Shown here one piece after another: positions 7,997 to 21,609 of a DNA stretch of 64,000 bases; position 1 is the stretch's first letter, and each line of letters opens with the position of its first letter. This stretch comes from Paludibaculum fermentans (GTDB lineage Bacteria > Acidobacteriota > Terriglobia > Bryobacterales > Bryobacteraceae). The DNA lies in the NCBI RefSeq assembly GCF_015277775.1, contig NZ_CP063849.1, positions 1,302,001-1,366,000 of the forward strand, given 5' to 3'. The translations under genes and the position numbers were made by a program. The notes beneath the pieces were generated by a model that worked only from the letters and a program-made list of their open reading frames with translations, did not search any database and was not told the origin of the DNA.

Positions 7997-9499
7997 ATGT
8001 CACTACCGTTCCCCATTCTCACCGCGGAAGAGGCGGCTGAGCTGATTCATCATGGCTCCACTATCGGGTTTAGCGGATTTACTCCGGCGGGCGCGGCCAA
8101 GGCCATTCCCTTTGCGCTGGCCGAGAAGGCCAAGCGGGAACACGCCGCGGGACGCGAATTCAAAGTCGGCGTGCTGACGGGCGCCTCCACCGGCAAGTCG
8201 CTCGACGGCGCGCTGGCCGAAGCCGAGGCGATCAGCTTCCGTACGCCGTATCAGTCCAACGCGATCCTGCGCAAGCAGATCAACTCGGGCCAGGTGAAGT
8301 TCGTCGATATGCACCTGTCGCTGCTGCCGCAGAATGTGCGCTACGGCTTCCTGGGTCCAGTGCATTGGGCCGTGGTGGAAGCGTGCGACATTACGCCGGG
8401 CGGCGGCATCGTGTTGTCCACCTCAGTGGGTGCGGCGAACACCTACCTGCGCCTGGCGGACAAGGTCCTGATCGAATTGAACGCCAAGCACCCAGCCACC
8501 CTGCTGGGCATGCACGACATCTTCGAACCGCTGGATCCCCCGGCCCGCCAGGAGATTCCGGTCTACGCGTCGTCCGACCGCATCGGTTCGCCCATCTGCG
8601 TCGTCGATCCCAAGAAGATCGCCGGTGTTGTCCTGACGAACCAGGCCGACGAAACGGCCGGCTTTGACGAACCTACACCCGTGACCGACCAGATCGGGCA
8701 GAACGTGGCGGACTTCCTCGTCGCCGAAATGAAGGCCAATCGTATTCCGCCGCAGTTCCTGCCGCTGCAATCGGGCGTCGGCAACATCGCCAACGCGGTG
8801 CTGGGCGCCCTGGGCCGCAGCAAGGAAGTGCCGGCCTTCGAGATGTACACCGAAGTGTTGCAGGACTCCGTTGTGCCGCTGCTCGAAAGCGGCCGCTGCA
8901 CCTTCGCTTCCACCTGCGCGCTGACCCTGTCGCCCGCGGCGATGAAGAACGTGACGTCGAACATCGAGTTCTTCAAGAGCCGCATTCTCATGCGTCCGCA
9001 GGAGATCTCGAATCACCCTGAGATCGTGCGGCGCCTGGGGATTGTGTCGATGAACACGGCCATCGAAGTCGACCTCGGCGGCAACGTCAATTCAACGCAC
9101 GTCATGGGCAAGACGATGATGAACGGCATCGGCGGTTCGGGCGACTTCACCCGCAACGCCTACCTGTCGATCTTCTCCTGCCCGTCGACGGCCAAGGGCG
9201 GCAAGATCTCCGCCATCGTGCCGCTAGCTTCGCACATGGATCACAGCGAGCACTCGGTGCAGGTCATCATCACGGAACAGGGTGTCGCCGACCTGCGCGG
9301 CAAGGATCCGCGCGAGCGAGCCGAACTGATCATCAACCACTGCGCGCATCCGGACTATCGCCAGCAGTTGCGCGATTACCTGGCGTTCACCGCGCCGACG
9401 AGCCATGAGCCGCTGTCGCTGTCGCTGGGCCTGGCCATGCACCGCCAGTTCACGCGGAGCGGGGATATGCGGAACATTAATTGGGCGGATTACCGATAA
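7997..9499 (+). CDS. Succinyl-CoA:acetate/propionate CoA-transferase (acetyl-CoA hydrolase/transferase family)
   Basis: 500 residues of the Cat1/AarC/ScpC class I CoA-transferase family. The catalytic glutamate is predicted at E286 in EMYTEVLQDS; the C-terminal part has GIGGSGDFTRNA and ITEQGVADLRGKDP. In this operon it would release propionate from propionyl-CoA while forming succinyl-CoA for the mutase, closing the Wood-Werkman cycle without spending ATP. Acetate could also be a partner. It is the last gene of the operon; a rho-independent terminator follows 22 bp after the stop. Confidence 0.93.
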   Translation: MSLPFPILTAEEAAELIHHGSTIGFSGFTPAGAAKAIPFALAEKAKREHAAGREFKVGVLTGASTGKSLDGALAEAEAISFRTPYQSNAILRKQINSGQVKFVDMHLSLLPQNVRYGFLGPVHWAVVEACDITPGGGIVLSTSVGAANTYLRLADKVLIELNAKHPATLLGMHDIFEPLDPPARQEIPVYASSDRIGSPICVVDPKKIAGVVLTNQADETAGFDEPTPVTDQIGQNVADFLVAEMKANRIPPQFLPLQSGVGNIANAVLGALGRSKEVPAFEMYTEVLQDSVVPLLESGRCTFASTCALTLSPAAMKNVTSNIEFFKSRILMRPQEISNHPEIVRRLGIVSMNTAIEVDLGGNVNSTHVMGKTMMNGIGGSGDFTRNAYLSIFSCPSTAKGGKISAIVPLASHMDHSEHSVQVIITEQGVADLRGKDPRERAELIINHCAHPDYRQQLRDYLAFTAPTSHEPLSLSLGLAMHRQFTRSGDMRNINWADYR

Positions 9500-9520
9500 T
9501 AGTTGGATGAGTTCGAGAAA

Positions 9521-9567
9521 GCGCGGCAGGCCCACGTTCAACGGGCTTGCCGCGCATTCGTTTTTTT
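9521..9567 (+). terminator. Rho-independent terminator of the propionate operon
   Basis: A 13-bp stem (GCGCGGCAGGCCC at 9521-9533 with GGGCTTGCCGCGC at 9543-9555, one G-T type mismatch) has a 9-nt loop and is followed by a seven-T run at 9561-9567. It sits just after the CoA-transferase stop. Confidence 0.92.
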
Positions 9568-9867
9568 GTGGCATGCCTCCGAACCGGCTAGGCTGTCCCC
9601 TCCGGCTGCGGCACTGGCGCAGGGTCCTCAAGGCGATCCGTCGTGCGCGCCACCATTGGCCTGATCTGGCCAGTTCAGTGGAACACAAGATCAGGCAGGG
9701 CGCGGCCGTGGAGGCCACGCTATGCGCGGCAATCACAAACCCCTCGGCCGGCCATTTCTGGCGCGGCAGCTCAGCCCGGATCCTGGGGCCTGGGCGCGCA
9801 ATGTGTAGCACCAATCCGTAACGGGCTCAGGCCGCCCCGCGGAATCGAATAGCATGGTGGAGGCACC
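9568..9867. other. Intergenic region, no gene seen
   Basis: About 300 bp between the operon terminator and the SGNH esterase. Short ORFs here have no family resemblance or ribosome-binding site. GGAGG at about 9857 serves the next gene. No repeat or RNA motif was recognised. Confidence 0.5.
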
Positions 9868-13716: not shown

Positions 13717-14558
13717 CCCCTCAGGATGGCCCATTTCAACAGTTCCGCGTGCGACAAGCCTTCCGGCGGATCCAGCCCCAGGAACCGCAGAGCCTCCTCG
13801 ATGGCGGGCCCGGGCCGTGTCGAATCCACAGGGGCGGCCCCGGTCTGTTTACTCAGCTTCTCCCCGGCGGCGTTGCGAACCACCGGAACGTGCAGGTAGC
13901 GCGGCTCCGGATGTCCCAGCCGCCTCTGCAGGTAGATCTGCCGAGGAGTGGAGGCCAGCAGGTCCTCCCCGCGCACGACATCCGTAATCCCCTGGTCCGC
14001 GTCATCCACCACCACGGCGAGTTGATAGGCGAAGAACCCATCGGCCCGCCGCAGGACGAAGTCCCCCACCTCCGCCAGCAGATTCTGTTCCTGCGGACCC
14101 ATTGCCCGGTCGGTAAACCTGACCGCCTCATCCGGCACCCGCACCCGCCACGCCCGCGCCGCGCGCCCTTCTGGCAGCCCGTTCCGGCACGTCCCCGGAT
14201 ACGGCTTCTCGCCACTGGCCGCAACCGTGATGGCCGAGTCCGCGATCTCCTTCCGCGTACATCCGCAAGGGAAGACCTGCCCGGCTGTCCGCAATCGCTC
14301 CAGCGCGGCGCGGTACAGCTCTTTCCGCTGGCTCTGGTACACCACCGGCCCGTCCCAGGTCAGCCCGAACGCCTCCAGCGTGCGCAGGATCTCGTCCGCC
14401 GCGCCGGGCACGCTGCGCGGCTCATCCACGTCCTCCATCCGCACCAGCCACGCGCCGCCTGCCCGGCGCGCGTCGACATAGCTGGCCACGGCCGCTACCA
14501 GCGATCCCTGGTGCAGCGGACCCGTCGGCGAAGGTGCGAATCGTCCTCGATACGGCAT
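13713..14558 (-). CDS. gluQRS: Glutamyl-Q tRNA(Asp) synthetase
   Basis: 281 residues from ATG 14558, the start that gives the family N-terminus MPYRGRFAPSPTGPLHQGSL; the upstream in-frame ATG at 14591 adds only a non-family peptide. The HIGH-like motif is HQGS and the KMSKS-like motif is EKLSKQTGA. A Cys-rich zinc region (FPCGCTRKE) is present and the anticodon-binding domain is absent, as in GluQRS. The enzyme attaches glutamate to queuosine at position 34 of tRNA(Asp). Together with psuG it makes a small tRNA-modification/nucleoside unit. Confidence 0.93.
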   Translation of the reverse strand: MPYRGRFAPSPTGPLHQGSLVAAVASYVDARRAGGAWLVRMEDVDEPRSVPGAADEILRTLEAFGLTWDGPVVYQSQRKELYRAALERLRTAGQVFPCGCTRKEIADSAITVAASGEKPYPGTCRNGLPEGRAARAWRVRVPDEAVRFTDRAMGPQEQNLLAEVGDFVLRRADGFFAYQLAVVVDDADQGITDVVRGEDLLASTPRQIYLQRRLGHPEPRYLHVPVVRNAAGEKLSKQTGAAPVDSTRPGPAIEEALRFLGLDPPEGLSHAELLKWAILRG

Positions 14559-14730
14559 GCAGGGCGGCCCCGTTCCGGCCGCTCCCCACATTGTCCCAAA
14601 GCCCGCCCCGCAGCCGCGCGAAGCTCGTGGGAATGCCCCCGCCGCATGCTGTAAACTCGTCGGAAGTGGGTGCTTTCAGGCCGTCCAACCCGTGCACCCT
14701 CCACCCGTGCGTTGAAGGGAAGGGTCCGTC

Positions 14731-17385
14731 ATGAAAGTCCGCTCCGCCTGTCTTGCCGCCGTCTGCCTGCTGGGCACGCTGCCCGTTGCCACCGCCCAAC
14801 AGGAGGCGACACCCCCGGCCGGAAACTACAGCGCCGACCGTCCCGTCGACTTCCTCCACATGAAGCTCGAATACCGCTTCACCGCCAAGGAAATCGCTGA
14901 ACGAGTCGCCGAAGGCCGCGTCACCTTCACCCTTACGCCGATCGCCCAACCGGTCCGCTCCCTGCGTCTCGATGCGGTGGACATGCGGATCCTCGACACC
15001 CAGGTCAACGGCGAGACCGTCACGTTCAGCTACGACGACAAGTCCCTCGAAATCCCCTTCGCCGCCCCGGTCGAGCCCGGCCGCAACGTCGATGTCACCG
15101 TGCACTTCCGCGTCGAGCGCCCCGATCGCGGTCTCCACTTCATCCTCCCCAACGCCAACGACCCCCAGAAACAGACCGTCGTCTACACCATGGGCGAAGG
15201 CATGGACGCCCGCCACTGGCTGCCCGCCCACGACTGGCCGAACGAGCGCTGGACCTCCGACCTGCTCATCACCGTGCCCAAGGGCTTCTCCGCCGTTTCC
15301 GTCGGCAAACTGGTAGGTTCCACTCCGGCCGGCGACGACGTCACATGGCACTGGAAAAGCGACCAGCCCACGGACCCGCACATGCTCGGCTTCGCCGTCG
15401 GCCGCTACGTCAAGCTCGAGAACACCTGGCGCGGGCGCCCGGTCCTCGCCTTCGTCCCCGCCGGCAAAGAGGCCGCGGGCCGTTACACCTTCCGCCGCGT
15501 GAACCAGATCCTCGACTTCTACTCCGAGCTCACGGGCGTCGAGTATCCTTACGACTCCTTCGCCCACGCCGCCGTCACCGACCATCATCACCGCGGCATG
15601 GAACACGCCGGCTTCTCCATGATCGATCCGGCCATGTTCAGCACCGGACCCAACGACGATGGCCTGGAGCCGCTGGAGCCCGGCTGGCCCGGTTACACCA
15701 TCGAGACCAACCTCGTTGCCCACATGCTCGCCCATAGCTGGTTCGGCGGCATCGCCAGTTACCGCAACGCCTCCCAGGGCTGGCTGAACGAGGGCTTCGG
15801 AACCTACCTCCACATGCAATGGGCCGGCCACGCCGACAATGAGGCCGTCTTTCTCTCTCTCATGCGCGGAGCCGCCCAGGGCCTCTCCTTCACCGACTCC
15901 AGCGAAACCGGACGTCCCATGGTCTGGCGGCAGTTCAACCAACCCATGGAGGTTTTCCAGTACGATGGCGGCAAGATCTATTGGAAGGGTGCCTGGATCG
16001 TCCACATGCTGCGCAGCCAGCTCGGCGACAAGGTCTTCTGGGGCGCGGTCAAAAACTACTTGAACGATCATCGCTGGGGCAGCGTGGAAACGGCGGATCT
16101 GCGCCGCGCGTTGGAAAAGGAATCGGGCCGCGACCTCGAGCGCTTCTTCGATCAATGGGTCTACGGCAAGGGTATCCCGCGCCTCAAGGCCGCCTACCGC
16201 TGGGATCCCGTGAAGAAGTCCGCCACTCTCACCCTGCAGCAGACACAACGAATTGCCGCTGACAGTCCCGTCTTCAACCTCCCCATCGAGTTGTACTTCC
16301 GCGTCGCCGGCAAGGACGAGTGGCGCACTGTGGAACTGGACCGCGCTACGCAGGACTACCCGTTCTCCTTCGACTCCGCCCCCGAGGCCTTCGCCATCGA
16401 CGCCCACGGCAAGCTGCTCTCCACTCTCACGGTGGAAACCCCGCGCGCCATGCTCGAATGGCTCGCCACCAGCGGACCCACGCCCCTGGCCCAGATCCGC
16501 GCAGCCGAGGCGCTCGGCACCCAGACGGCCAGTTCCTCCACCGCCGCCCTTTCCCGCCTGCTGCTCTCACCGACCGCCCTCTGGCCGGTCCGCCAGGTCG
16601 CGGCGACGGCCCTGGGCCGCCTCCAGATGCCCGAGGCCGCGCAGGCTCTCCTCGATGCGGAGAACTCCGGCATCGCCGATCCGAGAGTGCTCAGCGCCGT
16701 CCTGGCCGCGCTATCGGCCTATCCCTTCAACACGCCCGCCCACCAGGTTCTCCTCCGCTACGCCGCGGCCAGCCCGGTCGACAAGCTCCAGGCGATGGCC
16801 GCCCGCCAGTTGGGCCGCATGAAGGCCTCCCCTGAACTCCAGAAGGCTAGCCTGGCGCTGCTGGTGAACACGGCGAAGTCCTCGCCCCGGCCCATGGTCC
16901 GCGTCGCCGCCATCCAGTCGCTGGAACAGGCGGACGCCATCTCCGCCTACGACACTCTCTCAGACCTGGCTACCAAGCCGGGCGATCCCAACATCCGCAG
17001 CCGCGCCATCACGGCCCTGGGCGTGTTGGGCCGCGATGAGAAGCTCCGCGAGCGCACGTTCATCGCGCTCTGCGGGTGGCTCGACGATCCCGACTACGCT
17101 GTCCGTCCCTCGGCCGCCCGTGCCCTCGGCCGCCTGGGTGATGCACGAGCCCTGGGGCAGCTCACCACCGCGGCCGGCAGCCCGCGTACTGTGCTGGAGA
17201 AGGAAGCCCTGGAAGGCGCGCTCCGCAGCTTGCGCACTGCCCCCGATCCGCGCGTGTTGCCCGCGGGCGTGGTCGACCGCCTGGCCAGTATGGAGAAGGA
17301 GAATGCGCAGTTGAAAGAGCGTCTGGCGGATGTCACAAAGCGCCTGGGTGCGCTGGAATCGAAGAAAGAGACGCCCGCGAAGTAA
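14731..17385 (+). CDS. Exported M1-family peptidase homologue with HEAT repeats; catalytic Glu replaced
   Basis: 884 residues with signal peptide (cleavage near residue 22). Residues 40-570 are M1 aminopeptidase-like. The zinc-binding histidines H331 and H335 and third ligand E354 (WLNEGFGTY, 18 residues on) are intact, but HExxH reads HMLAH, so the general-base Glu is Met332; the GAMEN exopeptidase loop is also degenerate (HHRGMEHAG). The proton-donor Tyr region (KIYWKGAWIVHML) remains. Residues about 590-850 are HEAT-like repeats and the tail (MEKENAQLKERLADVTKRLG) is a coiled coil. It most likely binds peptides or proteins at the cell surface rather than cutting them. The codons cac atg ctc gcc cat at 15721 leave no frameshift ambiguity. 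Confidence 0.88.
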   Translation: MKVRSACLAAVCLLGTLPVATAQQEATPPAGNYSADRPVDFLHMKLEYRFTAKEIAERVAEGRVTFTLTPIAQPVRSLRLDAVDMRILDTQVNGETVTFSYDDKSLEIPFAAPVEPGRNVDVTVHFRVERPDRGLHFILPNANDPQKQTVVYTMGEGMDARHWLPAHDWPNERWTSDLLITVPKGFSAVSVGKLVGSTPAGDDVTWHWKSDQPTDPHMLGFAVGRYVKLENTWRGRPVLAFVPAGKEAAGRYTFRRVNQILDFYSELTGVEYPYDSFAHAAVTDHHHRGMEHAGFSMIDPAMFSTGPNDDGLEPLEPGWPGYTIETNLVAHMLAHSWFGGIASYRNASQGWLNEGFGTYLHMQWAGHADNEAVFLSLMRGAAQGLSFTDSSETGRPMVWRQFNQPMEVFQYDGGKIYWKGAWIVHMLRSQLGDKVFWGAVKNYLNDHRWGSVETADLRRALEKESGRDLERFFDQWVYGKGIPRLKAAYRWDPVKKSATLTLQQTQRIAADSPVFNLPIELYFRVAGKDEWRTVELDRATQDYPFSFDSAPEAFAIDAHGKLLSTLTVETPRAMLEWLATSGPTPLAQIRAAEALGTQTASSSTAALSRLLLSPTALWPVRQVAATALGRLQMPEAAQALLDAENSGIADPRVLSAVLAALSAYPFNTPAHQVLLRYAAASPVDKLQAMAARQLGRMKASPELQKASLALLVNTAKSSPRPMVRVAAIQSLEQADAISAYDTLSDLATKPGDPNIRSRAITALGVLGRDEKLRERTFIALCGWLDDPDYAVRPSAARALGRLGDARALGQLTTAAGSPRTVLEKEALEGALRSLRTAPDPRVLPAGVVDRLASMEKENAQLKERLADVTKRLGALESKKETPAK

Positions 17386-17393
17386 CGGGCTGC

Positions 17394-18149
17394 TTAGGCG
17401 AGCAGAACCCGCACGCCCTGGGCTTCCAGCATCTGCCGGTGCTCCAGGCTGAGCTCCGTATCGGAGATCACGATGTCGGCCACATCCAGCGGAGCCAGCG
17501 GCACCATCGCCGCCCGGCCGAACTTGGTATGATCGGCCACCAGGATGACGCGCCTTGAGGCTTCGATCATCTTGCGCTCCGATCCCACCAGCAGGGTGTT
17601 GTTGTTGCTGAATCCGGCCTCGGTGACGCCGCCGATGCCCATGATCAGGACATCCGCGCTCACGCTGGCCAGCATCTGCTCGCACAACTGGCCCAGCATC
17701 ACACGCAACCTGGGGTACAGATACCCGCCTGTGAGCGTCAGCTCGATCTGCCGCGACTGTTCAAACACCTCGGCAATCGCCAGTGAATTCGTCAGCACGT
17801 GCAGCGAGCGCGAGACGAGCTCCCGCGCCACGGCTGCCGCCGTCGACCCGCCGTCCAGCAGGATGGTCTGCCCGTCTTCCACCAGGCCTGCCGTGACGCG
17901 CGCAATGCGGCGCTTCTCTTCGGCCATGCGGCCGCTTTGCCACGTGTAGTCGAGTAGTTGGTCGTGCGTCTGCAGCGCCAGCGCGCCGCCGTGCACCCGC
18001 TTCAGGACGCTGTCTTTTTCCAGCAGGCTGAGATCCCGCCGCACCGTCGATTCCGAGGCGTTGAGCAGGCTGCACAGCGTCTCGAGATCGACGAACTCCT
18101 GAGATTCAAGGATCTCCCGGATTTTCAGCAGGCGCCCAGCCGCTTTCAT
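17394..18149 (-). CDS. DeoR-family transcriptional regulator of the microcompartment operon
   Basis: 251 residues. The N-terminal winged helix (LETLCSLLNASESTVRRDLSLLEKD...RVHGGAL) is classic DeoR. The C-terminal sugar-phosphate sensor domain has LDGGSTAAAVAREL, VLTNSLAIAEVF, MGIGGVTEAGFS and ADHTKFGRAA. It starts 7 bp after the aldolase stop and closes the BMC operon, so it is probably an autoregulator. DeoR proteins usually sense phosphorylated sugars, which fits an operon whose aldolase acts on a sugar phosphate. The ligand is inferred. Confidence 0.92.
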   Translation of the reverse strand: MKAAGRLLKIREILESQEFVDLETLCSLLNASESTVRRDLSLLEKDSVLKRVHGGALALQTHDQLLDYTWQSGRMAEEKRRIARVTAGLVEDGQTILLDGGSTAAAVARELVSRSLHVLTNSLAIAEVFEQSRQIELTLTGGYLYPRLRVMLGQLCEQMLASVSADVLIMGIGGVTEAGFSNNNTLLVGSERKMIEASRRVILVADHTKFGRAAMVPLAPLDVADIVISDTELSLEHRQMLEAQGVRVLLA

Positions 18150-18156
18150 TGGGAGA

Positions 18157-19236
18157 TCAGCTGGTCTTCTTGTTCAGTGCGGCGAGCACCGCATCGGCTA
18201 CGCTCTGCACCAGCGACTCCATGTCGTCGGTCTGTGCGGCTGCTGGTTTCAGTCCACCCGCGCCGGGGCGCGGAGGCAGGGAAATGGGCGTTTCCGGACT
18301 CATCACGTCGCACACCTGGCATTCGTCCAGGCCAAAGCGGGCATCGGGGATCCCCAGCTTCTGCTTGATCGCCAGCAGGTCGGTCGCCTTCGCGCCCGGA
18401 ATCTGCGAGATCGGCGCGCCCAACTGGCTCGCGATCAGCAACGTGTGGCAGTAGGTCTCCACCACCTCGGCATACCACTCGGCATGCGTCACCGTATCGG
18501 CCCAGCACACGATGCCGTGATTGCCCAGAAGCACGGTATTGTGCGTCCGCACATAGGGAATCACGGTCTCGGCGAACTTCTGCGTACCCGGAGTCTCGTA
18601 CGGCGACACCGCAATGCTGCCCACGAACACTTCGTATTCAGGGATCACACAGTTCGGAGGCACGCGGCCCGTAATCGCATACGCGGTCGCATGCGGCGGA
18701 TGGCAGTGCACCACACCCTTGGCGGCCGGCACGGCCTTGTAGATCTCCAGGTGCAGCAGGATCTCGCTGGTGCGCGGACGGGCGCCATACAACTGCGTAC
18801 CCTTCAGGTCCACAATGCACAGGTCCGCCGGAGTCAGGTCGCCCTTGCTGATCAGCGTAGGCGTGCAGATCACCGCGTCCTCGCCAATCCGGTAGCTGAT
18901 GTTGCCGCCGTTGCCGTCCACATACTGCCGGTGCCACAGCTTGTGTCCGGCATGCACGATTTCAGCCTTGATCGCTTCCGCTTCGGGCGAGTAGAACAGC
19001 TTCTCCCACTGCGTGCCCGCGCCCACCACATTCGCACCCGCTGCCGGAGCAGATGCCGCGGCAGCCGGACTGGAGCCGCTGTTCAGCTTCAACTGATTCG
19101 AAGCCACCAGATCCTGGGCGGCCGGCGTAAACACGGCGTTCTCGCGGACCAGCAGCTCTTTCGCGCCGCTGCGCACCGCTGCTTCCACGTCCTCGGCGCA
19201 GATCACCTTCAGGTCCTTCAGATCCGCACTCTTCAT
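18157..19236 (-). CDS. Class II (zinc) aldolase of the microcompartment, fuculose/rhamnulose-1-phosphate type
   Basis: 359 residues from ATG 19236 (GAGGTAA upstream); an in-frame extension to 19293 runs into the previous gene and is not family-like. The core has the zinc ligands H177 and H179 (VHCHPPHATAY), H240 (LLGNHGIVCW) and the catalytic Glu region (TSEILLHLEIYK). Reaction: retro-aldol cleavage of a deoxy-ketose 1-phosphate to dihydroxyacetone phosphate and lactaldehyde. An extra 90-residue N-terminal segment and an Ala/Pro linker precede the core; after another linker the protein ends in an amphipathic helix (MESLVQSVADAVLAALNKK) resembling an encapsulation peptide. Fuculose versus rhamnulose phosphate cannot be told from sequence. 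Confidence 0.9.
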   Translation of the reverse strand: MKSADLKDLKVICAEDVEAAVRSGAKELLVRENAVFTPAAQDLVASNQLKLNSGSSPAAAASAPAAGANVVGAGTQWEKLFYSPEAEAIKAEIVHAGHKLWHRQYVDGNGGNISYRIGEDAVICTPTLISKGDLTPADLCIVDLKGTQLYGARPRTSEILLHLEIYKAVPAAKGVVHCHPPHATAYAITGRVPPNCVIPEYEVFVGSIAVSPYETPGTQKFAETVIPYVRTHNTVLLGNHGIVCWADTVTHAEWYAEVVETYCHTLLIASQLGAPISQIPGAKATDLLAIKQKLGIPDARFGLDECQVCDVMSPETPISLPPRPGAGGLKPAAAQTDDMESLVQSVADAVLAALNKKTS

Positions 19237-19264
19237 GCTCTTACCTCGAATTCCATATGTCCCG

Positions 19265-20713
19265 CTAGATGACCCGCAACGCCCCGCCGCCAATCGTCAG
19301 TTGGCGCTCCCGGGTAAATGTCAGCGGTGTCGTCACGCCCTCGCCCGTGGGCGTCGCAATGCTGAAGCTGAGATAGCCGGCGCCATCCGTACCCAGCGCC
19401 GCCGTACACGGGGCGTTGTGCACAAACAGCGTGGTGTTCATGGCCCTGGCCATCTTCGTCACGTTCTCGATGTTGCGCGAGTGGATCAGCGCCGTGTGCC
19501 GGTAGCCGTGCTCGGCCTTCACCGAGGCGGCGATGCCCGCATTCACGTCTTTCACCTTCACCAGCGGCAGGAACGGCATCATCTGCTCTTCCTGCACGAA
19601 GGCGTGATCCTCGTTCGTTTCACCGAACAACAGCGGAGTGCCCGCCGGCACCTTCACGCCGGCCGCCGCCGCCAGCACGGCCACGTCCTTGCCGATCAGT
19701 TCCTTGCGCACATGCGCATGGCCGCAGCCCTTGCCTTCGCCATCCCAGCGGAAAGCCGCTTCGGTCAGCCGCTCCACCGCCGCAAAGTCGAGTTCCACCG
19801 CGCCTGCGCGCTTCATGGCGGCAATGAACGCATCCCACACCTGCGCCACGACGAAGACTTCCTTCTCGCCGATGCACAGCAGGTTGTTGTCGAACGAAGC
19901 GCCCGCGATGATCGCCTTCGCCGCTTCATCCAACTGCGCGGTCTCGTCCACCACCACGGGAGGATTCCCGGGACCCGCTGCAATCACGCGCTTGCCGGAC
20001 TTGCCCGCCGCGCGCACCACCGCCGGACCGCCCGTCACGCACAACAGCGCGATGCCCGGATGATGGAACATCTCTTCCGCCGCGCGGATGCTCGGATCCT
20101 GCATCGTCACCAGGGCATTCGTGATGCCTGTGGCCTTCTCGATCTCGCGGTTGAACACCTGCAGCGCCCGTGCCGCCACCTTGGCCGCGGCCGGATGCGG
20201 GCTGAAGACCGCCGTGTTGCCCGCCGCGATGATGTTGATCGCGTTGCTGGCCATGGTCGGCACGGAGTGCGTCGCCGGCAGCACCATCCCGATCACGCCC
20301 CACGGAGCGCGCTCAATGATGCACAGCCCCGAAGCATCGCTCCGCGACTGGCTGGTCATCGCTTCCACGCCCAGCACGTACTTGACGTTCTCGAGCTTCG
20401 CAATCTTGTGGTCCAGCCGGCCCAGGCCCGTCTCTTCCAACTCCAGCCGGGCCCACTCCTGCTTATTCTGTTCGCACAGCCGCCGGATGATGGTGATGAT
20501 CTGCCCGCGTTGTTCCAAGCCCAGCGCCGCGACCTTTACCTGCGCCTCAGCCGCGGCCTTCACGGCGGCGTCCACTGAAGGCAATACACCGTCGCCCAGC
20601 GCAGCGACCGCCTTGGGCGAAACCTGTGCAGCCGCGGGCTTTGCCTGTTGCTGCAAGCGGAGCAATACCTGCTCGGCGATCTCGGCAACCAGTTGATCCC
20701 GATTCATGGTCAT
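19265..20713 (-). CDS. CoA-acylating aldehyde dehydrogenase, PduP/EutE type
   Basis: 482 residues. Catalytic cysteine C280 lies in NNLLCIGEKEVF; ERAPWGVIGMVLPATHSVPT and AAGPGNPPVVVD are typical of microcompartment aldehyde dehydrogenases. The first about 22 residues (NRDQLVAEIAEQVLLRLQQQ) form an amphipathic helix followed by an Ala/Pro linker, the layout of a PduP-type encapsulation peptide. It would oxidise lactaldehyde or propionaldehyde to the acyl-CoA with NAD+ and CoA inside the shell. ATG 20713 or 20707 could be the start. It lies 28 bp upstream of the aldolase and 23 bp downstream of BMC-H. Confidence 0.92.
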   Translation of the reverse strand: MTMNRDQLVAEIAEQVLLRLQQQAKPAAAQVSPKAVAALGDGVLPSVDAAVKAAAEAQVKVAALGLEQRGQIITIIRRLCEQNKQEWARLELEETGLGRLDHKIAKLENVKYVLGVEAMTSQSRSDASGLCIIERAPWGVIGMVLPATHSVPTMASNAINIIAAGNTAVFSPHPAAAKVAARALQVFNREIEKATGITNALVTMQDPSIRAAEEMFHHPGIALLCVTGGPAVVRAAGKSGKRVIAAGPGNPPVVVDETAQLDEAAKAIIAGASFDNNLLCIGEKEVFVVAQVWDAFIAAMKRAGAVELDFAAVERLTEAAFRWDGEGKGCGHAHVRKELIGKDVAVLAAAAGVKVPAGTPLLFGETNEDHAFVQEEQMMPFLPLVKVKDVNAGIAASVKAEHGYRHTALIHSRNIENVTKMARAMNTTLFVHNAPCTAALGTDGAGYLSFSIATPTGEGVTTPLTFTRERQLTIGGGALRVI

Positions 20714-20736
20714 GATGTCTTAGCCTGCCCCGCTGC

Positions 20737-21012
20737 CTACTTCGGCAGGACGTTCTTTACATCACTGTGGGGCCGCGCAATCACGTGGACGCTGACCACT
20801 TCGCCCACCGGCCGTGCCGCCGCCGCGCCCGCTTCCACGGCCGCTTTCACCGACGCGACGTCGCCCGTCACAAACGCCGTGCACAGGCCGCTGCCCACTT
20901 TCTTCCAACCCTTGAATTCAACGGTCGCCGCCTTCAGCATCGCGTCCGTGGCGTACACCAGGGGCACCAGACCCTTGGTCTCGATCATTCCAATCGCTGC
21001 TGTGATTTCCAT
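20737..21012 (-). CDS. BMC-H shell protein (PduA/PduJ type hexamer)
   Basis: 91 residues, one canonical BMC domain (PF00936): [25 protein letters not shown]..., pore region [16 protein letters not shown], and HVIARPH near the end. It forms the hexameric tiles of the shell; the pore loop with GSG followed by Cys would line the metabolite pore. AAGGAA lies 7 bp upstream of ATG 21012. This is the only single-domain BMC protein in the window. Confidence 0.96.
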
Positions 21013-21033
21013 GTGAGTTTCCTTGTCCGGCGA

Positions 21034-21609
21034 CTAGCGCAGAATCCCTTCCACCAGGCCGTCATGCGGCCGCGGAATCACGTGCGAGGCAACCAGTTCG
21101 CCTACGCGCCGGGCCGCATGCGCGCCGGCATCCACCGCCGCCCGTACACTGCCCACATCGCCGCGCACCACCGACGTGACGAAGCCGCCGCCAATCTCGA
21201 TGCTGCGGATCAACTGCACGCTGGCCGCTTTGCACATCGCGTCGGAGGCTTCAATCAGGCCCACCAGGCCGCGCGTCTCAATCAGGCCCACCGCCAGTTG
21301 GCTGTCCGGTTCCGCCGCCGCGCCGTTGCCCTTGCGGGCCGCCTGCTGCAGGAACAGATCCAGACCGTCGTGCGGACGGGGGATGACTTGCACACAAGAG
21401 AGTTCGCCGACGCGGCGCGCCGCTGCCGCGCCCACATCCGTGGCCGCCTTTACCGCCGCCACATCACCTTCCACAAACGCCGTCACCAGGCCGCTGCCCA
21501 CCGTTTCCCAGCCGACGAACGTCACGTTCGCCGCCTTCAACATGGCGTCCGAAGCCTCAAACAGGGCGACCAGGCCTTTGGTCTCGATCATGCCCAACGC
21601 TTGTCTCAT
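21034..21609 (-). CDS. BMC-T shell protein (tandem BMC domains, trimer)
   Basis: 191 residues with two non-permuted BMC domains: the first from [20 protein letters not shown] to [10 protein letters not shown], the second from [20 protein letters not shown] to [10 protein letters not shown], separated by a 15-residue linker. The two pore loops differ (VGSG in the first, GGG in the second), giving an asymmetric pseudo-hexamer. It is the first gene of the operon; AAAGGA is 5 bp before ATG 21609. Tandem BMC proteins often carry larger gated pores or cofactors; no obvious Fe-S cysteine cluster is visible here. Confidence 0.95.

Follow-up and report, generated by a model that had tools for sequence, protein, structure and literature searches.

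A gene of the M1 peptidase family in the wetland bacterium Paludibaculum fermentans carries methionine (Met332) in place of the catalytic glutamate of the HExxH motif, and it is kept under purifying selection that is strongest around this altered site. The gene has the marks of a pseudopeptidase, in that an essential catalytic residue has been lost and the reading frame has been kept under selection. Judging from the sequence, we give about even chances to the view that it encodes an exported M1 pseudopeptidase, a zinc-loaded natural trap which would capture the amino termini of peptides and leave them uncut. The gene lies in a window of 64,000 nucleotides (contig NZ_CP063849.1), which is the whole stretch of DNA that was analysed, and positions are counted from the first letter of this window.

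Gene and Domain Structure

The protein belongs to the M1 superfamily both by homology, with scores above the curated Pfam cut-offs, and by the fold of its AlphaFold2 model. It scored 109.5 bits with Peptidase_M1 (PF01433, cut-off 27.7), 38.7 bits with Peptidase_M1_N (PF17900, cut-off 25.8), 80.1 bits with HEAT_2 (cut-off 27.7), and 26.8 bits with HEAT (cut-off 23.5). The original prediction, made from the letters of the DNA, had described a full-length, HEAT-repeat-fused protein. The frame, open across 884 codons with M1 and HEAT matches, bears out the full length. Pfam also confirmed the HEAT repeats, but they are not an unusual fusion, because a HEAT-repeat domain IV is described as the usual fourth domain of M1 aminopeptidases in the portion of PMC10343166 available to us.

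The protein stayed below the cut-offs of the leukotriene A4 hydrolase (LTA4H) model TIGR02411 (79.4 bits, cut-off 761.7) and of the aminopeptidase N equivalogs TIGR02412 (125.9 bits, cut-off 591.2) and TIGR02414 (58.5 bits, cut-off 718.2). Two relatives with an HELAH motif (L071 and L147) were likewise below the cut-offs of TIGR02412 and TIGR02414. The features of the gene are listed in Table 1.

Table 1. Features of the M1-family gene, with positions in the window.
Feature	Position	Strand	Basis
M1-family protein gene (M1 peptidase domains I-IV), 884 aa and stop	14731-17385	+	Open frame, Pfam, modelled fold
Signal-peptide-like N-terminus, residues 1-23	14731-14799	+	Judged by eye; residues 1-33 have pLDDT below 50
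Peptidase_M1_N match, residues 57-211	14899-15363	+	Pfam
Peptidase_M1 catalytic-domain match, residues 252-476	15484-16158	+	Pfam
Most conserved 91-residue segment, residues 272-362, containing the altered active site	15544-15816	+	Sliding-window identity, omega
GAMEN-equivalent motif R288-G-M-E291-H292, Glu kept	15592-15606	+	Alignment
H331-M332-L333-A334-H335, HExxH with Met for the catalytic Glu	15721-15735	+	Codons, alignment
Glu354 (GAG), third zinc ligand	15790-15792	+	Alignment
Tyr417, M1 catalytic tyrosine position	15979-15981	+	Alignment
HEAT-repeat domain (domain IV), residues 571-836	16441-17238	+	Pfam HEAT_2 and model helices
C-terminal helix, residues 845-878	17263-17364	+	Model secondary structure

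Altered Active Site

The altered motif is encoded by the codons CAC ATG CTC GCC CAT, and 18 residues separate H335 from E354, which is the spacing of M1 enzymes. The codons and this spacing confirm that the three zinc ligands (His331, His335, and Glu354) are retained and that Met332 stands at the place of the catalytic glutamate, as originally proposed. Because that glutamate is absent, the protein was not classified as an active M1 aminopeptidase.

The original prediction had also held that the GAMEN loop was lost. The alignment dismisses this, since the RGMEH motif of the protein aligns with GGMEN and keeps its glutamate (Glu291), with His in place of Asn. Among the 139 aligned homologues that retain all three zinc ligands (described below), Glu was found at this position in 137, the trio of orthologues with Met332 included. 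The catalytic tyrosine is present as Tyr417, which we take to be the equivalent of LTA4H Y383, and Tyr occurs at this position in 138 of the 139 rows.

His285-287 and His292 are invariant across the three orthologues and are located within the GxMEH loop or immediately ahead of it. Two further candidate changes were set aside. R288 was unique to the trio in one alignment, but this depended on the alignment, and L130 showed RGMEH together with HELAH when aligned pairwise. Position 154, which is Met in this protein and Gln in 80 of the 139 ligand-intact rows, was dropped as a second loss in the cleft because four other rows also have Met there.

Homologues and Distribution of the Methionine

Orthologues were found in two other genomes of the genus, G002 and G006, which are 95% and 79% identical to the protein, respectively, and both share Met332. 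Among 237 genomes of the family, near-full-length matches of at least 79% identity occurred in three, all of this genus; the genus has six further genomes, none of which gave a match at E 1e-30, and the next-best match within the family was 34% identical. The contig scan took the best 80 of 249 relatives, which gave 79 distinct loci. One of these loci was 95% identical (MAG contig JAFKEE010000027.1, taken as G002), and the others were at most 33% identical in the best segment. The exact DNA pattern for HMLAH-x-WFG was found in 1 of 396 genomes of the phylum, namely the window genome, in a sample that lacked G002 and G006.

The homologue set was made up of the best 80 of 249 relatives and up to 30 loci per genome search, with open frames ended at each stop and trimmed to 1000 residues. 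Before counting, we left out L004, L009, and L010, which duplicate the query or L068, as well as identical rows, matches over E 1e-20, and matches covering fewer than 380 query residues. All three zinc ligands are retained in 139 of the 159 aligned homologues, and position 332 is Glu in 136 of these and Met in 3, which are the trio. The nearest full-length relatives found were M1-HEAT proteins of Acidobacteriota, Verrucomicrobiota, Chloroflexota, Planctomycetota, and other phyla, which have the same domain order. They differ from the trio at this position: in the 83 ligand-intact rows covering at least 60% of residues 571-835, Glu was found in 80 and Met in the trio only. The original prediction had named close homologues all carrying HExxH as the sign of an isolated mutation. 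Two orthologues share the Met, whereas the next relatives, at 33-34% identity or below, do carry HExxH.

A quick tree built from 64 rows grouped the trio as one supported clade, with an SH-aLRT of 100 and a branch length of 1.14 changes per site. A Bacteroidota row placed as its sister (SH-aLRT 93) was not accepted and was flagged as long branches meeting, and no nearer sister group with Glu was found among the homologues gathered. Because the same Met is present in two other assemblies, and because ATG differs from GAG at two positions and from GAA at all three, Met332 is not the product of chance or error. The change to Met is fixed and common to the three species of one genus in which it is known, and the simplest reading is a single event.

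The 20 rows without all three ligands comprised L079 (a fragment with gaps there), L126, and 18 rows of a second M1-like group, approximately 610-680 residues long, that lacks at least one zinc ligand together with the Glu of HExxH or that of the third ligand. The window genome holds an example (L006, 847-2805, minus strand) that reads NQITR ... WIVNG, matches Peptidase_M1 above the cut-off, and bears TPR-type repeats. The group also occurs in related genomes (L017, L018, L020-L022, L024-L030, L032-L036, and L038), and from these sequences it seems to be a widespread acidobacterial M1 pseudopeptidase. L126 (Gemmatimonadetes MAG contig CADEFN010000001.1, match at 8001-9809) has EAEALAS at the HExxH region and WLSRAF for WLNEGF; judged by these motifs, it lost the zinc site independently.

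Purifying Selection

Omega was estimated by Nei-Gojobori counts, with the window genome as the reference against G002 and G006. The whole-gene omega was 0.056 against G002 and 0.119 against G006. Residues 272-362 were chosen after the alignment had been seen, and a sliding scan then placed this segment first. Against G006, the segment was 97.8% identical, with an omega of 0.010 over 39.5 synonymous differences at a dS of 1.73, which is near saturation; the remainder of the protein had an omega of 0.138, and the HEAT region (residues 571-845) had an omega of 0.188. Codon 333 reads CTC, CTC, and TTG across the trio, and the neighbouring ATG of codon 332 is unchanged.

Of the seven other Pfam-M1 proteins that the genome encodes, L001, L007, and L006 served as paralogue controls and L002, L003, L005, and L008 were left out; the control pairs were taken as orthologues from the search ranking. 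Against G006, the omega of the matching segment and of the rest was 0.106 and 0.247 in the HELAH paralogue, 0.046 and 0.143 in the HEIAH paralogue, and 0.071 and 0.058 in the zinc-less paralogue, respectively. The identity of the zinc-less paralogue was 93.4% in the segment and 89.4% in the rest. The dN of the segment was 0.0165 in the M1 gene and 0.1077, 0.0566, and 0.0424 in the HELAH, HEIAH, and zinc-less paralogues, respectively. Against G002, where one paralogue was compared, the segment omega was 0.032 in the HELAH paralogue and 0 in the M1 gene. The altered site is constrained at least as strongly as the sites of the two HExxH paralogues of the genome.

Given the low omega around the site and the fixation of Met332 in three species, these data are best read as a sign of a selected role that followed the disappearance of the general base. 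The selection that was originally suggested is thus supported, and the loss of the GAMEN loop is not.

Structure Model

The AlphaFold2 model, built on 32 aligned sequences, has the M1 fold, with a mean pLDDT of 86.7 and a pTM of 0.84. The pLDDT was below 50 at residues 1-33, 310-321, 840-844, and 881-884, and the stretch 310-321 links the GMEH loop to the HMLAH helix. All of the 50 Foldseek matches listed were titled M1 aminopeptidases except 7edx_B, a TFIID chain that we take to be TAF2, which had the highest query TM-score among them (0.77). When the Foldseek matches were compared by VIA-align, the Z score was 42.5 both to tricorn factor F3 (1z1w, 637 residues, rmsd 3.4) and to PepN (2dq6, 722 residues, rmsd 4.0).

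The protein thus resembles E. coli PepN, factor F3, and puromycin-sensitive aminopeptidase in its fold over most of the chain and in its zinc ligands, and it shares the GxME motif, the Tyr, and a HEAT-type domain IV with four-domain M1 aminopeptidases. It differs from the latter in the Met at the general base of HExxH, and the sequence identity in structural alignments to M1 enzymes was 16-18%. The match lists also include, by title, the engineered mutants 6ifg (E323A, with Tyr-Ser-Ala), 6enb (E297Q, with Pro-Gly-Pro), 3b7s (E296Q, with RSR), and 5yo1 (E298A, with puromycin), as well as the E323 mutants 6koy, 6koz, 6kp0, and 6kp1, which are likewise titled as ligand complexes. The residues altered in these entries are presumably the HExxH glutamate, equivalent to Met332. 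The zinc ligands are kept in 6ifg, 6enb, 3b7s, and 5yo1 as in the present protein, but these mutants were made in the laboratory and carry Ala or Gln rather than Met.

Genomic Context

Upstream, on the opposite strand, are a gene for a class I Glu/Gln-type tRNA synthetase fragment (called GluQ-like) and an IndA/PsuG-like gene. Downstream and convergent is a bacterial microcompartment locus (17394-21609, minus strand) with genes for a DeoR-type regulator, a class II aldolase, an aldehyde dehydrogenase, and a shell protein with a double BMC domain. The locus adjoins the M1 gene in all three species, as counterparts of these four genes stand beside it in the same order in G002 and G006. G002 also has counterparts of both upstream genes beside the M1 gene. 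In G006, approximately 8 kb and other open frames separate the GluQ-like gene from the M1 gene, and the region examined stops before the position of the IndA/PsuG-like gene. We do not claim a functional link with the microcompartment genes, because these neighbours are kept in three species but are convergent. A 661-codon open frame opposite the M1 gene (14422-16407, minus strand) is probably a side effect of the high G+C content of third codon positions.

Proposed Function and Alternatives

According to the part of PMC10343166 that we consulted, the water bound to zinc in M1 enzymes is held and deprotonated by the glutamate of HExxH, and the proposed task of the glutamate of GAMEN is to take the amino terminus of the substrate. 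Because the former is replaced by Met332, the protein should be unable to hydrolyse peptides by the M1 mechanism, and because only the general base is removed, binding should remain. From these residues, we infer that the protein, which is probably exported, would bind zinc through H331, H335, and E354, and that the zinc-bound water would lack activation. The amino terminus of a peptide or protein would then enter the cleft and be gripped, uncut, by Glu291 and zinc, while the HEAT domain and the C-terminal helix may scaffold or present the captured chain. Since Glu291 and Tyr417 are kept, most of the substrate-gripping apparatus is present, and the binding role proposed here is more specific than the one originally suggested. 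Taken at the level of residues, the kept set (zinc ligands, Glu291, and Tyr417) with the lost glutamate at 332 is the pattern of a trap mutant. For comparison, LTA4H E296Q is called inactive and shown with PGP in the accessible text of PMC5648829. The neighbouring genes point to no partner for such a trap, and selection on the cleft would appear equally if the site carried out other chemistry.

The protein might instead be a scaffold like TAF2, with a zinc site that is structural only and a function in the HEAT domain and outer surfaces, which we consider rather unlikely. The highest query TM-score among the 50 Foldseek matches listed, to 7edx_B, speaks for this, and TAF2 differs in being a subunit of a nuclear transcription factor whose zinc site we take to be lost. 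Taf2 carries an aminopeptidase homology domain, with four subdomains, according to the portion of PMC6220335 available to us. Against a scaffold, the cleft and not the HEAT region is the most constrained part in the comparison with G006, and in the zinc-less paralogue the omega of the matching segment is not below that of the rest, at a slightly higher identity.

A zinc enzyme with non-peptidase chemistry, resembling the epoxide hydrolase of LTA4H, would need zinc and the GxMEN glutamate and could dispense with the HExxH glutamate; we regard this as unlikely. Mutation of E296 or Y383 in LTA4H selectively blocks the aminopeptidase, and E271 is required for both reactions (PMC3405069, seen in part). 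The present protein keeps the equivalent of E271 (E291) and has lost that of E296, and the tight constraint on the cleft suits an enzyme. However, Tyr417 is kept although Y383 is dispensable for the epoxide reaction, and the LTA4H model TIGR02411 scored far below its cut-off. With a similar degree of doubt, the site may have been rebuilt, such that Met332, His285-287, His292, Arg288, and the zinc ligands form a His/Met-rich site for a metal and ligand, in a non-peptidase zinc enzyme or in an extracytoplasmic sensor of metals or peptides.

It is improbable that the protein is a weak peptidase in which a different residue, such as His292 or any of His285-287, serves as the base. The invariance of these residues in the trio and their place at the GxMEH loop would fit such a base, but His is common at position 292 among HExxH relatives (29 of the 139 ligand-intact rows, the trio included), so it does not indicate a special compensation. 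A decaying gene or a sequencing error, in whose favour the missing catalytic residue is the sole point, is ruled out for practical purposes by the intact frame, the same Met in three assemblies, and the low whole-gene omega against both genomes.

Relation to Known Pseudopeptidases

Among the literature matches listed, the published idea that we consider closest to an uncut capture of amino termini is that of Tma108. Tma108 is a yeast M1 homologue that binds nascent chains via its substrate pocket and is thought to bind the N-terminal regions of proteins in this way (PMC11266112, consulted in part). In contrast to the present protein, it keeps HExxHx18E and has lost a substrate-binding residue (Table 2 of the same source), and it is associated with the yeast translation machinery and is not exported. 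No bacterial M1 protein with HMxxH was found in the titles and abstract openings among the literature matches listed, which does not prove absence. M1 pseudopeptidases as such are already known.

If the proposed capture of uncut peptide amino termini is true, this protein would be a natural counterpart of the Glu-to-Ala and Glu-to-Gln trap mutants, and a peptidase cleft turned into a receptor, in a bacterium that is not known to be pathogenic. As it stands, this bacterial protein has lost the general base and retains the known residues that grip the substrate.
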